Shown here: one piece after another, positions 58,760-63,107 of the stretch | Layout of the letters: each line of letters starts with the position of its first letter | Numbering within the stretch: the stretch's first letter is position 1 | Source: Melioribacter sp. | GTDB lineage: Bacteria; Bacteroidota; Ignavibacteria; Ignavibacteriales; Melioribacteraceae | Reading direction: 5' to 3' | Assembly (NCBI GenBank): GCA_023250955.1 | Contig: JAHEZQ010000006.1 | Span: 248,001 to 312,000, forward strand | DNA: 64,000 nucleotides | The notes under the pieces: model-generated | What the model was told of the DNA's origin: nothing | What the model saw: the letters and a program-made list of their open reading frames with translations, nothing else | The model's database searches: none | Translations under genes and position numbers: made by a program

Positions 58760-61147
58760 TTATTCCAACAATAAAAATCTAAATCCCACACCTTTAACTG
58801 TAATCTCTAATTTTCCATTATTAACTTTTATATTCTCTCCACCAACTAAATCTGAAACGGAATTAATTTTATAAATATTTGGTAGTTGCAGTTTTACTTT
58901 TTGTTCGTTTTCATTTTTATTAAGTACAACGAGAATTCTTTCGTTCATGTCCGAACGTATATATGCGAAAATGTTTTCGTCAGCTTCTAGCGTTAGAAAA
59001 TCTCCGTAACGAAGTGCGGGATGATTTTTTCTAACATTTATAATTCTTCTAACATCTTCCAGCATCTTCCTTTCATCCTTACTCAAATCATTTCCGAAGC
59101 GCATCATTCTTCTGTTATCGGGATCGGAGGCGCCTGTCATACCGAATTCACTTCCGTAATAAATAACCGGAAGACCTGGAATTGTATTCATATAAGCATA
59201 ATACAATTTTGCTTTTTCGTAGTTAGCGGGATTATCAACCTTGGGCGGATTATTCCATCCTTCTTCCGTTGCACTCCACTGACTCAATTCTAAATCTCCA
59301 TCTGCAAAAGCCATGAACCGGTTTTTATCATGACTGTCCATAATATTTCCCATTACATTATTTTCTCCATAAACTAAAAATGACTTTTTCATTTCTGCAT
59401 CAAGTGCCTTGAAAGAAATTTTTTTATCAAGAAAAGTCGGAAGAGCTATATCATAAAGATTGAAATTAAATTGCGCTGAAAGCTGTCCATTATTCACATA
59501 AGAACTGATTAATTCATAACTGCCGAAAGTTTCTCCAATCTGATATACAGAAACGTTCATGGGCAATTCAATTTCTTTTTTAATTTTTAAATTGAGTGCG
59601 CGCCAAAATTCATTCGGCATATGTTTCACTGCGTCTTGTCTAAATCCGTCAGCCCCTGTTACCTTCAACCACCATACTGCATTGGATGCTTGAAAATCAA
59701 CCACTTCCTTCGATCCAACAAAATTAAATTTTGGTAAATACGGTTCAAACCATGTTGTTAATCTTTGTTCATCCCATAATCTAAGATTCAATCTTCCGTC
59801 GGGAAGTTTAAGTTTTCCGAACCATTCAGGATGTTGCTTAACTAGCGGATGATTTTCGTGAACATGGTTGGCAACAAAATCCAACAAGGTTTTTATTTTG
59901 TGTTTATGTGCAGTTGAAACTATTTCTTTAAGTTTATTTATCGTACCGAACTTTTCTTCAACACCAAAAGAATTAATTGGCCAATATCCGTGATAACCGG
60001 AAAACCATCTGTGAGGTGCGGGTGATTCTTTATATGCCTGATTAGGATTATCATAAACGGGAGAAATCCAAATTGTGTTGACGCCGAGTGAATCAAAATA
60101 TCCTTCACTAAGTTTATTTAGAATTCCTTGAAAATCACCACCCATGTAATTTGCTTTTCCAAATAGCGAATCTTGAACGATCGGTTCGTTAAGTGATTTA
60201 TCCCCGTCGTTAAATCTATCTATCATTAAAGAATAAATTATTCCATCGTTCCATGTAAAATTATTGTTACTGGCCGGTACACCATCAAAAAGATTAATGG
60301 ATTGAATATTTGTTGATCTGCCGTTTTTATTTACTGCAATTCGGAAAAGATTTTTTCCTTTTAATTGAGATTTCGGAATAGAGGATTCTATTTTGTTTTC
60401 TTCAATTTTAATATACTTTTTATTTAATCTGGTGTTGTTAAGCAAAGCAATAATGTCTTTCGGATCAACATTGTTTCCATCTTTTTCATTTTCATAAATG
60501 AATGAAAATTTTGATTCATTCGTATTTATTTCTTTTCCGGCAACATGAAGGAATAATTTACCTTCATCCGGATTAGCAACGTTGAAAAGTGAATTGAAGT
60601 CACCAAAGCCGTTTGGCTTTTTATCAGGATTTTTAGGATCTACAATTTCTTCTCCGTCTCCCCAAAATTTATATTCATATCTGCCTGGTTCAAGTGGGAC
60701 TTCAGTTTCGAAAACTCCATCTTTGTTTTCGTCTTTCATCGGAAGATTGCCTCTATCCCATCCGTTAAAACTTCCGAAGAGAGTAAGTTTATTATATTTT
60801 TTCCCCGGCTTGTAAGAAAATTTAAATTTTTGCTGAACTCTTGACCGTACTGGAAAGGAGTAAGTGTTTCCCGCCAGTTTGAAATCAACTAAAGTCATCC
60901 CGGCAAAATTCATATCAGCTTTGAAATAAACTTTTTCGGTTCGTTTATTATAATTTACTTTTACTTTTTTATTTTCTTGAAACTTCAGATCATAATTATT
61001 CGAATAGAACATATCACTAATCAAGAGAGAATCTGTTTTACCTGCGGTAAGATTAACCGGTTTAATAATGTCACGTACTCCACTCTGAGCATAGTTGGAA
61101 ACGATAAAGAAAAAAGAAAATAAAATGACCGGCTTTAAAAACTTCAT
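58760..61147 (-). CDS. Secreted GH13 alpha-amylase family protein with N-terminal glycogen-binding-type module
   Basis: KLTLFGSFNGWDRGNLPMKDENKDGVFETEVPLEPGRYEYKFWGDGE; GADGFRQDAVKHMP; QIGETFGS; IMDSHDKNRFM. Start set at MKFLKPVILFSFFF. Confidence 0.92.
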   Translation of the reverse strand: MKFLKPVILFSFFFIVSNYAQSGVRDIIKPVNLTAGKTDSLLISDMFYSNNYDLKFQENKKVKVNYNKRTEKVYFKADMNFAGMTLVDFKLAGNTYSFPVRSRVQQKFKFSYKPGKKYNKLTLFGSFNGWDRGNLPMKDENKDGVFETEVPLEPGRYEYKFWGDGEEIVDPKNPDKKPNGFGDFNSLFNVANPDEGKLFLHVAGKEINTNESKFSFIYENEKDGNNVDPKDIIALLNNTRLNKKYIKIEENKIESSIPKSQLKGKNLFRIAVNKNGRSTNIQSINLFDGVPASNNNFTWNDGIIYSLMIDRFNDGDKSLNEPIVQDSLFGKANYMGGDFQGILNKLSEGYFDSLGVNTIWISPVYDNPNQAYKESPAPHRWFSGYHGYWPINSFGVEEKFGTINKLKEIVSTAHKHKIKTLLDFVANHVHENHPLVKQHPEWFGKLKLPDGRLNLRLWDEQRLTTWFEPYLPKFNFVGSKEVVDFQASNAVWWLKVTGADGFRQDAVKHMPNEFWRALNLKIKKEIELPMNVSVYQIGETFGSYELISSYVNNGQLSAQFNFNLYDIALPTFLDKKISFKALDAEMKKSFLVYGENNVMGNIMDSHDKNRFMAFADGDLELSQWSATEEGWNNPPKVDNPANYEKAKLYYAYMNTIPGLPVIYYGSEFGMTGASDPDNRRMMRFGNDLSKDERKMLEDVRRIINVRKNHPALRYGDFLTLEADENIFAYIRSDMNERILVVLNKNENEQKVKLQLPNIYKINSVSDLVGGENIKVNNGKLEITVKGVGFRFLLLE

Positions 61148-61220
61148 GTTGATCTCCACATGGATTTATTCCATACGTAAAATAAAAAAACTAAAAGTTA
61201 TAAGAGAATTAAAAAGAGGT

Positions 61221-61874
61221 TTAAGCCGGGTGGTATTCAGTTAAAAATTTTTCAAGTCCGTTTAGACATGTAATATAGTGTACATTTTGAAATTGTGATA
61301 GTTCGTCGGCGCGTCCTTCGGCAAGAGCTTGTCCGCCAATAATTATTTCTTGATCGGGAAATTCTTCTTTGATTGATTGAATTAACTTAGTCAATCTAAT
61401 TACATTAATATAAAAGCTGTTCGATATGCCAACCAAATCCGGTTTCTTTTCTCTAATGATGGCTATGATATCCGATTGCGGTGTGTTGGAACCGATAAAA
61501 ATTGTACGCCAGCCATATGCTTCTAAAAATCCGGCAACCATACGCGCACCAAGTTCATGATATTCTTTATCAACACAAGTGATCAGAGCAAGTTTGCCGT
61601 TGTCATCATCGCCTAATGAGCTTGTACTTACTAATTCTATCAACGCTTCAGTAATTTTTGTTGCAATATGTTCACCCGCAACAGAACATTTTTCCCGTTC
61701 CCACATTTGACCGATTCTGTACATCGAACGCTGAAAAAGCTCCATGTATATCGCTTTGATGCTGACTTTTTGCTCAATAAGATTAAGTACAATTTGTGTG
61801 CACAGTTTTTTATCACCATCAAGGAGCGAGTTTAGATAATGCAGATAAACCGCTTCCGGAATTATTTTATTCAT
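61221..61874 (-). CDS. Stand-alone cobalamin (B12)-binding domain protein with Wx9EH motif
   Basis: MWEREKCSVAGEHIATK; DKEYHELGARMVAGFLEAYGWRTIFIGSNTP; IIIGGQAL; no HTH. Confidence 0.88.
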   Translation of the reverse strand: MNKIIPEAVYLHYLNSLLDGDKKLCTQIVLNLIEQKVSIKAIYMELFQRSMYRIGQMWEREKCSVAGEHIATKITEALIELVSTSSLGDDDNGKLALITCVDKEYHELGARMVAGFLEAYGWRTIFIGSNTPQSDIIAIIREKKPDLVGISNSFYINVIRLTKLIQSIKEEFPDQEIIIGGQALAEGRADELSQFQNVHYITCLNGLEKFLTEYHPA

Positions 61875-61926: not shown

Positions 61927-62571
61927 CTAAGAAGTTTTTTTATTCCTTTTGTTAATTAGACGTGAGATTCTATAACTGGTATAAGCAAAGAATGGAGCCG
62001 CCACAACATCAATTGTGTAATGAACATGTTGAATTAAAACTAAAGCGGCAATTAGAATTGTACAAATTAAAAAAACGGTTTTTAATTTTTTGCTTTTTGC
62101 AGTTAAAAAGAAAAGAAACATTGTTGAAGTATGTCCCGAAAAAAACAAATCACGTAAAAGAGTTGAACCTCCACCGAAAAATTCTACGAACGGATCTTTA
62201 AGAGGTATGATATGAAGCGGTGCGTTTAACGGTAAAAAATAAATTGTAATCAATCGTAATGCTGCAATTAAAGTATATGATTGCAGTGCTAGCAGCATTC
62301 TATCGGGATGAAAGAGTAAAAAAGAGAGAGCAATTATTAATCCAAGATAAATCAAGCCAAAGGTTAACCATGTTACATTAACAGGCTGAAATGTAGCCAG
62401 TAGCGGATCGTTAAATGAAAAACCGGGACGTGCTTCATTATAAGCTAGGAACTTTGCAAGCGAGAAAAGAATTATAGCCAGAAGAAAAAGAGTTATTAGA
62501 AATTTCGTTCTAAACCTTTTATCAAGCAGATACGGCAGCCAAATCGGTTTTATCTCTTTAAGTTTTCTCAA
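61927..62571 (-). CDS. PAP2-superfamily membrane protein (sphingomyelin-synthase-like PAP2_C type)
   Basis: Multi-TM; RDLFFSGHTSTMFLFF and HVHYTIDVVAAPFFAYTSYR. Confidence 0.78.
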   Translation of the reverse strand: MRKLKEIKPIWLPYLLDKRFRTKFLITLFLLAIILFSLAKFLAYNEARPGFSFNDPLLATFQPVNVTWLTFGLIYLGLIIALSFLLFHPDRMLLALQSYTLIAALRLITIYFLPLNAPLHIIPLKDPFVEFFGGGSTLLRDLFFSGHTSTMFLFFLTAKSKKLKTVFLICTILIAALVLIQHVHYTIDVVAAPFFAYTSYRISRLINKRNKKTS

Positions 62572-62642: not shown

Positions 62643-63107
62643 TTATTTTAGTTTGCCGAACAGTTTCATAAAAAAACGCATCATCTTATGAAACGGATCA
62701 ACCTTGCTAATATACATCATCGGGCATCCGCTTCTTATTACAGACAGTCCGTTTTCTTCTCCAAGTTTTGCCGCTTCCTCAGAAAAACTTCCGTTACCCA
62801 TTGAGCGGTGAAACCAAATTGTTTTAACTTCAGCTTCAATACTCTGCTTTACAATTTCGGTTGAGACTGCCGGACTTGTTGCAATAAAAACCGCATCAAC
62901 TTTTTCCGGAATGGATTTTAAATTAGGATAACATGTGTCACCTTCAATCATTTCTGCATGGGGATTAATTGGAAATATGTTGTAACCGCTCTCCTTAAAT
63001 TTTTTGTAGATTGCATTACCAACTGATCCTTGAGGATTGCGTGATACACCGGCAATGGCTATAGTTTTTTGATTAAAAAATTCTGTTATTTTTTGCTCGT
63101 AGTTCAT
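62643..63107 (-). CDS. CoA-binding protein (YccU-like Rossmann fold)
   Basis: KTIAIAGVSRNPQGSVGNAIYKKFKESGYNIFPINP; VDAVFIATSPAVSTEIVKQ. Confidence 0.93.
   Translation of the reverse strand: MNYEQKITEFFNQKTIAIAGVSRNPQGSVGNAIYKKFKESGYNIFPINPHAEMIEGDTCYPNLKSIPEKVDAVFIATSPAVSTEIVKQSIEAEVKTIWFHRSMGNGSFSEEAAKLGEENGLSVIRSGCPMMYISKVDPFHKMMRFFMKLFGKLK

Follow-up and report, generated by a model that had tools for sequence, protein, structure and literature searches.

A stand-alone cobalamin-binding protein of Melioribacter, putatively of the CarH/photocobilin light-sensing class

A cobalamin-binding protein without an output domain

The window (the 64,000-nucleotide stretch of Melioribacter sp. DNA analysed here) encodes a 217-aa protein that is probably a free-standing receptor domain for AdoCbl, of the light-sensing class represented by CarH and the photocobilins. 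Its nearest relatives are the cobalamin-binding domains (CBDs) of globin-B12 (photoglobin/photocobilin-type) systems, not CarH or AerR. Judging from tree topology and gene order, the solo family to which it belongs appears to have arisen from globin-B12 sensors through separation, and later loss, of the globin and the dedicated histidine kinase. The gene and its neighbours are as follows.

58760..61159, minus strand: alpha-amylase-like gene, directly downstream on the same strand; a neighbour
61221..61874, minus strand: gene for the stand-alone cobalamin-binding protein, 217 aa (ORF, Pfam, AlphaFold pLDDT 92)
61927..62571, minus strand: PAP2_C membrane phosphatase-like gene on the same strand, 52 bp upstream; a neighbour
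62643..63107, minus strand: CoA_binding_2 protein gene (Pfam); a neighbour only

An in-frame TAA stands immediately before the ATG of the CBD gene, and the gap to the PAP2 gene upstream is 52 bp. These features leave no space for a fused HTH, in agreement with a preliminary description that gave the protein about 217 aa and no N-terminal MerR domain. Pfam recognizes B12-binding_2 (residues 13-80, E 7.6e-13) and B12-binding (residues 96-183, E 1e-17), both above cut-off, and no domain beyond these two, so that the protein consists of the CBD alone. The second match is the Rossmann B12 domain also recognized in that description. An HTH or MerR DNA-binding domain was not found in the ORF, by Pfam or in view of the TAA before the ATG, and neither was a globin domain. 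Comparison with three close orthologues yields dN/dS values of about 0.06-0.11, and the ORF is therefore a constrained gene.

Signature residues and predicted fold

The elements of the protein that can be aligned with characterized AdoCbl photoreceptors are listed below.

61635..61838, minus strand: four-helix cap (B12-binding_2, residues 13-80; Pfam), with model helices at residues 7-18, 22-34, 39-59 and 65-85
61701..61712, minus strand: GxxW element of the light signature, G55-W58 (motif scan and alignment; signature from PMC11796333)
61668..61703, minus strand: Wx9EH motif, W58..E68-H69, aligning with TtCarH W131, E141 and H142
61326..61589, minus strand: Rossmann B12-binding domain, residues 96-183 (Pfam)
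61566..61568, minus strand: K103, at the Gly position of GxxH (alignment)
61548..61565, minus strand: cobalt-ligand motif E104-Y-H106-E-L-G109, aligning with TtCarH E175, H177 and G180
61479..61493, minus strand: GxxxP element, G128-P132 (motif scan and alignment)
61329..61337, minus strand: GGQ, residues 180-182; Q182 aligns with TtCarH Q249, and Tyr takes this place in the globin fusions

In the alignment, the motifs of the window protein land on G128, W131, E141, H142, H177, G199 and P203 of CarH from T. thermophilus HB8 (TtCarH). The exact W-x9-EH spacing noticed earlier is present as W58, E68 and H69. The ExHxxG sequence, previously taken as a variant of DxHxxG, is likewise there at E104-G109, but it is a standard accepted form and no oddity. 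The published B12 motif reads D/ExHx2G/P-x41-SxT/V-x22-27-GG (PMC9304148), and the window protein has this spacing: the H106 motif is followed by x41-S151 and then by x26-G180G181, as in TtCarH, with S153 at the usual T/V place. An alignment of 42 homologues, down to 33% identity, shows no variation at L17, G55, W58, E68, H69, H106, G109, G121, G128, P145, G180 and G181. Because of this invariance and the low dN/dS, the Wx9EH and cobalt-ligand motifs are not a coincidence. A further residue of the cap, Cys25 (61800-61802), shows no variation among 40 solo proteins; the fusions have Ala there.

An AlphaFold2 model of the protein (pLDDT 92, pTM 0.87; 42 window and locus proteins used) was compared with the PDB by Foldseek. 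The 50 matches listed comprise only SasPcob (TMq 0.88), AbDPcob, CtMerR (TMq 0.87) and TtCarH/LitR, all of them AdoCbl photoreceptors. The best PDB sequence match is also SasPcob (E 1.9e-20), so that photocobilins are nearest by both sequence and fold search among the matches listed.

The window protein shares with the photocobilins SasPcob (8J2W) and AbDPcob (8J2Y) the CBD fold, Wx9EH, GxxxP, E-x-H and the origin of its clade. It differs from them in having K for G in GxxH, Glu for Gln after the Trp and GGQ for GGY, and in lacking a fused globin/biliverdin domain, of which none was found in the genome, as well as a kinase or cyclase output. Compared to TtCarH, it retains all CBD signature residues except the Gly of GxxH, and its GGQ as well, but it carries Glu59, Tyr105 and K103 where TtCarH has His132, Arg176 and G174, has no MerR HTH and belongs to another clade. 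The CBD of CtMerR (8JBS/8JBT) resembles it in fold, in Wx9EH and in the absence of a His132 equivalent, which SasPcob and AbDPcob lack as well; in contrast to the window CBD, which stands alone, that of CtMerR is part of an HTH protein.

Phylogenetic position

Two CBD trees, of 80 and 57 sequences, place CarH (MerR-CBD), AerR-like and corrinoid-methyltransferase proteins in separate clades of their own. The window protein lies in a solo clade (support 96/89), which groups with the CBDs of split systems (100/97) and, together with these, with a globin-CBD fusion from Ilyobacter (100/98). Branching is stepwise: the Ilyobacter fusion comes first, then one split-gene CBD (100/97), then three (99/90) and then the solo clade. 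The trees fix no order for the other globin fusions, actinobacterial proteins or CarH relative to this group.

These relationships bear on several possible class assignments. The CarH-type reading given earlier stands insofar as motifs, fold and tree indicate an HTH-less CBD of the AdoCbl-photoreceptor class, but it does not extend to a derivative of CarH. CarH membership was rejected on the separate clade, the absence of a MerR domain and an NCBIfam CarH score of 53/400 bits, which is below cut-off. MerR-fused homologues, which had been suggested as a search target, were not seen in the clade, and the HTH-CBD proteins of the phylum sit in other clades.

A corrinoid shuttle of the MtaC/MtbC/MetH type, working with a methyltransferase whose gene lies elsewhere, would have the same two Pfam domains and a similar size, and NCBIfam corrinoid models do match the protein, far under cut-off. 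Such a role is nevertheless highly improbable. Corrinoid-methyltransferase CBDs fall outside the group of the window protein with support of 100/99, Wx9EH is absent from the corrinoid proteins of this order, and no methyltransferase adjoins any locus examined. Membership among the MtaC/MtbC proteins was rejected for its position outside their clade and the lack of a methyltransferase partner gene beside the loci. The preliminary description was accurate in noting no methyltransferase or mutase neighbour, both around the gene and at the orthologous loci examined. Its proviso that the motif spacing might be coincidental among corrinoid methyltransferase proteins fails in the face of the clade exclusion and the residues invariant in 42 homologues.

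The same description likened the protein to AerR, a stand-alone B12 domain that needs a partner, and the window protein must indeed signal through oligomerization or a partner because it has no output domain. However, it would be surprising in the extreme if it acted on a CrtJ/PpsR-like regulator as an antirepressor of the AerR/PpaA type. The trees set it outside the AerR-like clade (100/96), so that AerR/PpaA membership was rejected, neither of the two AerR-like sequences sampled has the EH of Wx9EH, and there is no equivalent of the LAerR N-terminal extension that bears His10.

Globin-B12 fusions, split genes and solo proteins

Solo proteins are present in 44 of the 96 genomes searched from the genus, family and order. 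Globin-B12 systems occur in 15 of these genomes, 13 of which also hold a solo protein. Four genomes carry split systems with a CBD, a separate globin and a histidine kinase, arranged as CBD-globin-kinase in loci L074, L075 and L142 and as CBD-kinase-globin in L141. The separate globins match the N-terminal domain of the fusions (4e-14 and 5e-12 in a two-sequence hmmsearch; hhalign 96%). Separate neighbouring genes for a globin and a B12-binding protein have a precedent in the BBAG-2 globins of Myxococcales and others (PMC10151467), which the four split loci resemble; the window genome has the B12 half only. No globin match at E 1e-3 was found in 12 genomes of the genus, the window genome included, and photocobilin membership was rejected on this result and the lack of a globin (biliverdin-binding) domain in the ORF. 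The N-terminal domain of the cognate kinase likewise has no match in the window genome or in the three others tested from the genus.

Unsplit systems are found in loci L072, L073, L076, L077 and L078, each of which encodes a fusion of about 355 aa and, directly after it, a histidine kinase of about 400 aa. This pair is a conserved photocobilin-kinase operon in Ignavibacteria. The fusion gene of genome G066 (L157:3839-4902) is split into two ORFs within the CBD, whereas it is a single frame in G073 of the same genus.

The residue three positions before the cobalt ligand follows these architectures. It is Gly in all 7 aligned fusions, Asn in the split-gene relatives and Ilyobacter, and Lys in all 40 solo proteins. 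The SignatureFinder mining signature for light-sensing CBDs calls for all four of GxxW, EH, GxxH and GxxxP (PMC11796333). The window protein carries three of the four elements and, with KxxH in place of GxxH, does not have the complete set, which is one published mining signature and no test of function. A GxxH filter would miss the solo family. In CtMerR, the equivalent Gly touches the corrin through its main-chain carbonyl, so that Lys at this position need not abolish binding. We infer that the G/N/K change compensates for partner loss.

More tentatively, the solo proteins of Ignavibacteria and relatives may constitute a separate class of B12 photoreceptor, stripped of the bilin-globin and kinase of a photocobilin, re-tuned from G to N to K in the cobalt-side loop and now working with an unrelated partner. 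The known B12 photoreceptors are either fused to an output (an HTH or a diguanylate cyclase) or are of the AerR kind. A solo clade that has kept the receptor pocket and apparently lost the second chromophore and the kinase would allow the requirements of the B12 domain itself to be told apart from the contributions of its partners. The series of fusion, split and solo proteins, with its stepwise residue by the cobalt ligand, makes the tuning of B12 photochemistry by the globin testable through G/N/K swaps.

Genomic neighbours

In Melioribacteraceae-type genomes, 22 loci have PAP2 just ahead of the CBD gene, and an alpha-amylase gene usually comes after the latter. In a second family, genes for MlaE, an ABC ATPase, an MCE protein and a TPR protein lie downstream. 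Proximity to PAP2 in the one family and to MlaE-ATPase-MCE lipid transport genes in the other is what favours a role in which the protein would control membrane lipids through these neighbours, in response to light or B12. We consider this very unlikely, since PAP2 orthologues are present in 58 of the 96 genomes, many of them without this CBD, and an opposite-strand M24 peptidase gene nearby is about as conserved as PAP2. The adjacency thus looks like lineage synteny, and PAP2 was rejected as a specific dependent partner. PAP2 and CoA-binding genes, put forward earlier as possible conserved neighbours, adjoin the CBD gene in one family only. At the loci examined, no DNA-binding partner is conserved beside the CBD gene, and a nearby HTH partner, as previously envisaged, is not supported. 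In genome G003, the PAP2 gene has two in-frame stops (L079, near 814-1455), possibly through assembly error or decay.

Light, AdoCbl and a possible mechanism

From its pocket, fold and clade, we infer that the window protein senses light, a function that sequence cannot separate from sensing of AdoCbl. Photolyase genes are present in 31 of 44 genomes with the solo protein and in 20 of 52 without (p 0.002; p 0.035 at the genus level; kinship ignored). A third SQS_PSY gene accompanies 19 of the 44 and 8 of the 52, again with kinship ignored. Only this third copy was used because every genome matches SQS_PSY, considered as a carotenoid marker, mostly with two tandem genes, which we take to be HpnC/HpnD. 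Within genus g37, photolyase and a third SQS_PSY gene are found only in the species that has the CBD.

A rather unlikely alternative is that the protein responds to the level of AdoCbl, which would drive assembly or partner binding, with photolysis being incidental. The same motif set would serve such a sensor, and CBD genes exist in genomes without photolyase, including that of the window, where neither photolyase nor CarH was found. In L066 and L067, from two genera, the CBD gene also adjoins and follows cobO. There it heads a same-strand run of DtxR, Feo and exonuclease III genes that leads to photolyase genes. CobO shows no association with the CBD gene across the genomes (23/44 versus 28/52). 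Against an AdoCbl-level sensor are the associations with photolyase and third SQS_PSY genes and the fact that, in known photoreceptors, Wx9EH caps the adenosyl group. The window genome encodes a PduO-type adenosyltransferase and can therefore make AdoCbl.

For the preferred reading as a photoreceptor domain, the alignment and model suggest a dark state in which H106 would be the lower ligand of cobalt, with W58 and E68-H69 of the cap folded over the adenosyl group. By analogy to CarH, CtMerR and SasPcob, green light would break the Co-C bond, the adenosyl group would leave and the cap would move, which may change a surface for self-association or partner binding. With Glu59 in place of His132 of TtCarH, the protein is not predicted to form a bis-His light state. 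If light does change its oligomeric state, this compact 217-aa domain could be a useful optogenetic part.

Some other CBD proteins of the sampled genomes are joined to DNA-binding domains. Proteins of about 300-340 aa from loci L144, L145, L146, L153, L154 and L155 form a sister clade of CarH. Those of L144, L146 and L154 begin with a BldC/MerR-like HTH (TTVKRWxDxGxIKCTxTLGxHRKF), and the L144 gene lies near a photolyase gene. CarH-like MerR-CBD proteins are encoded in Ignavibacteria at L129, L130, L131 and L132, with a photolyase gene close by in the first three.
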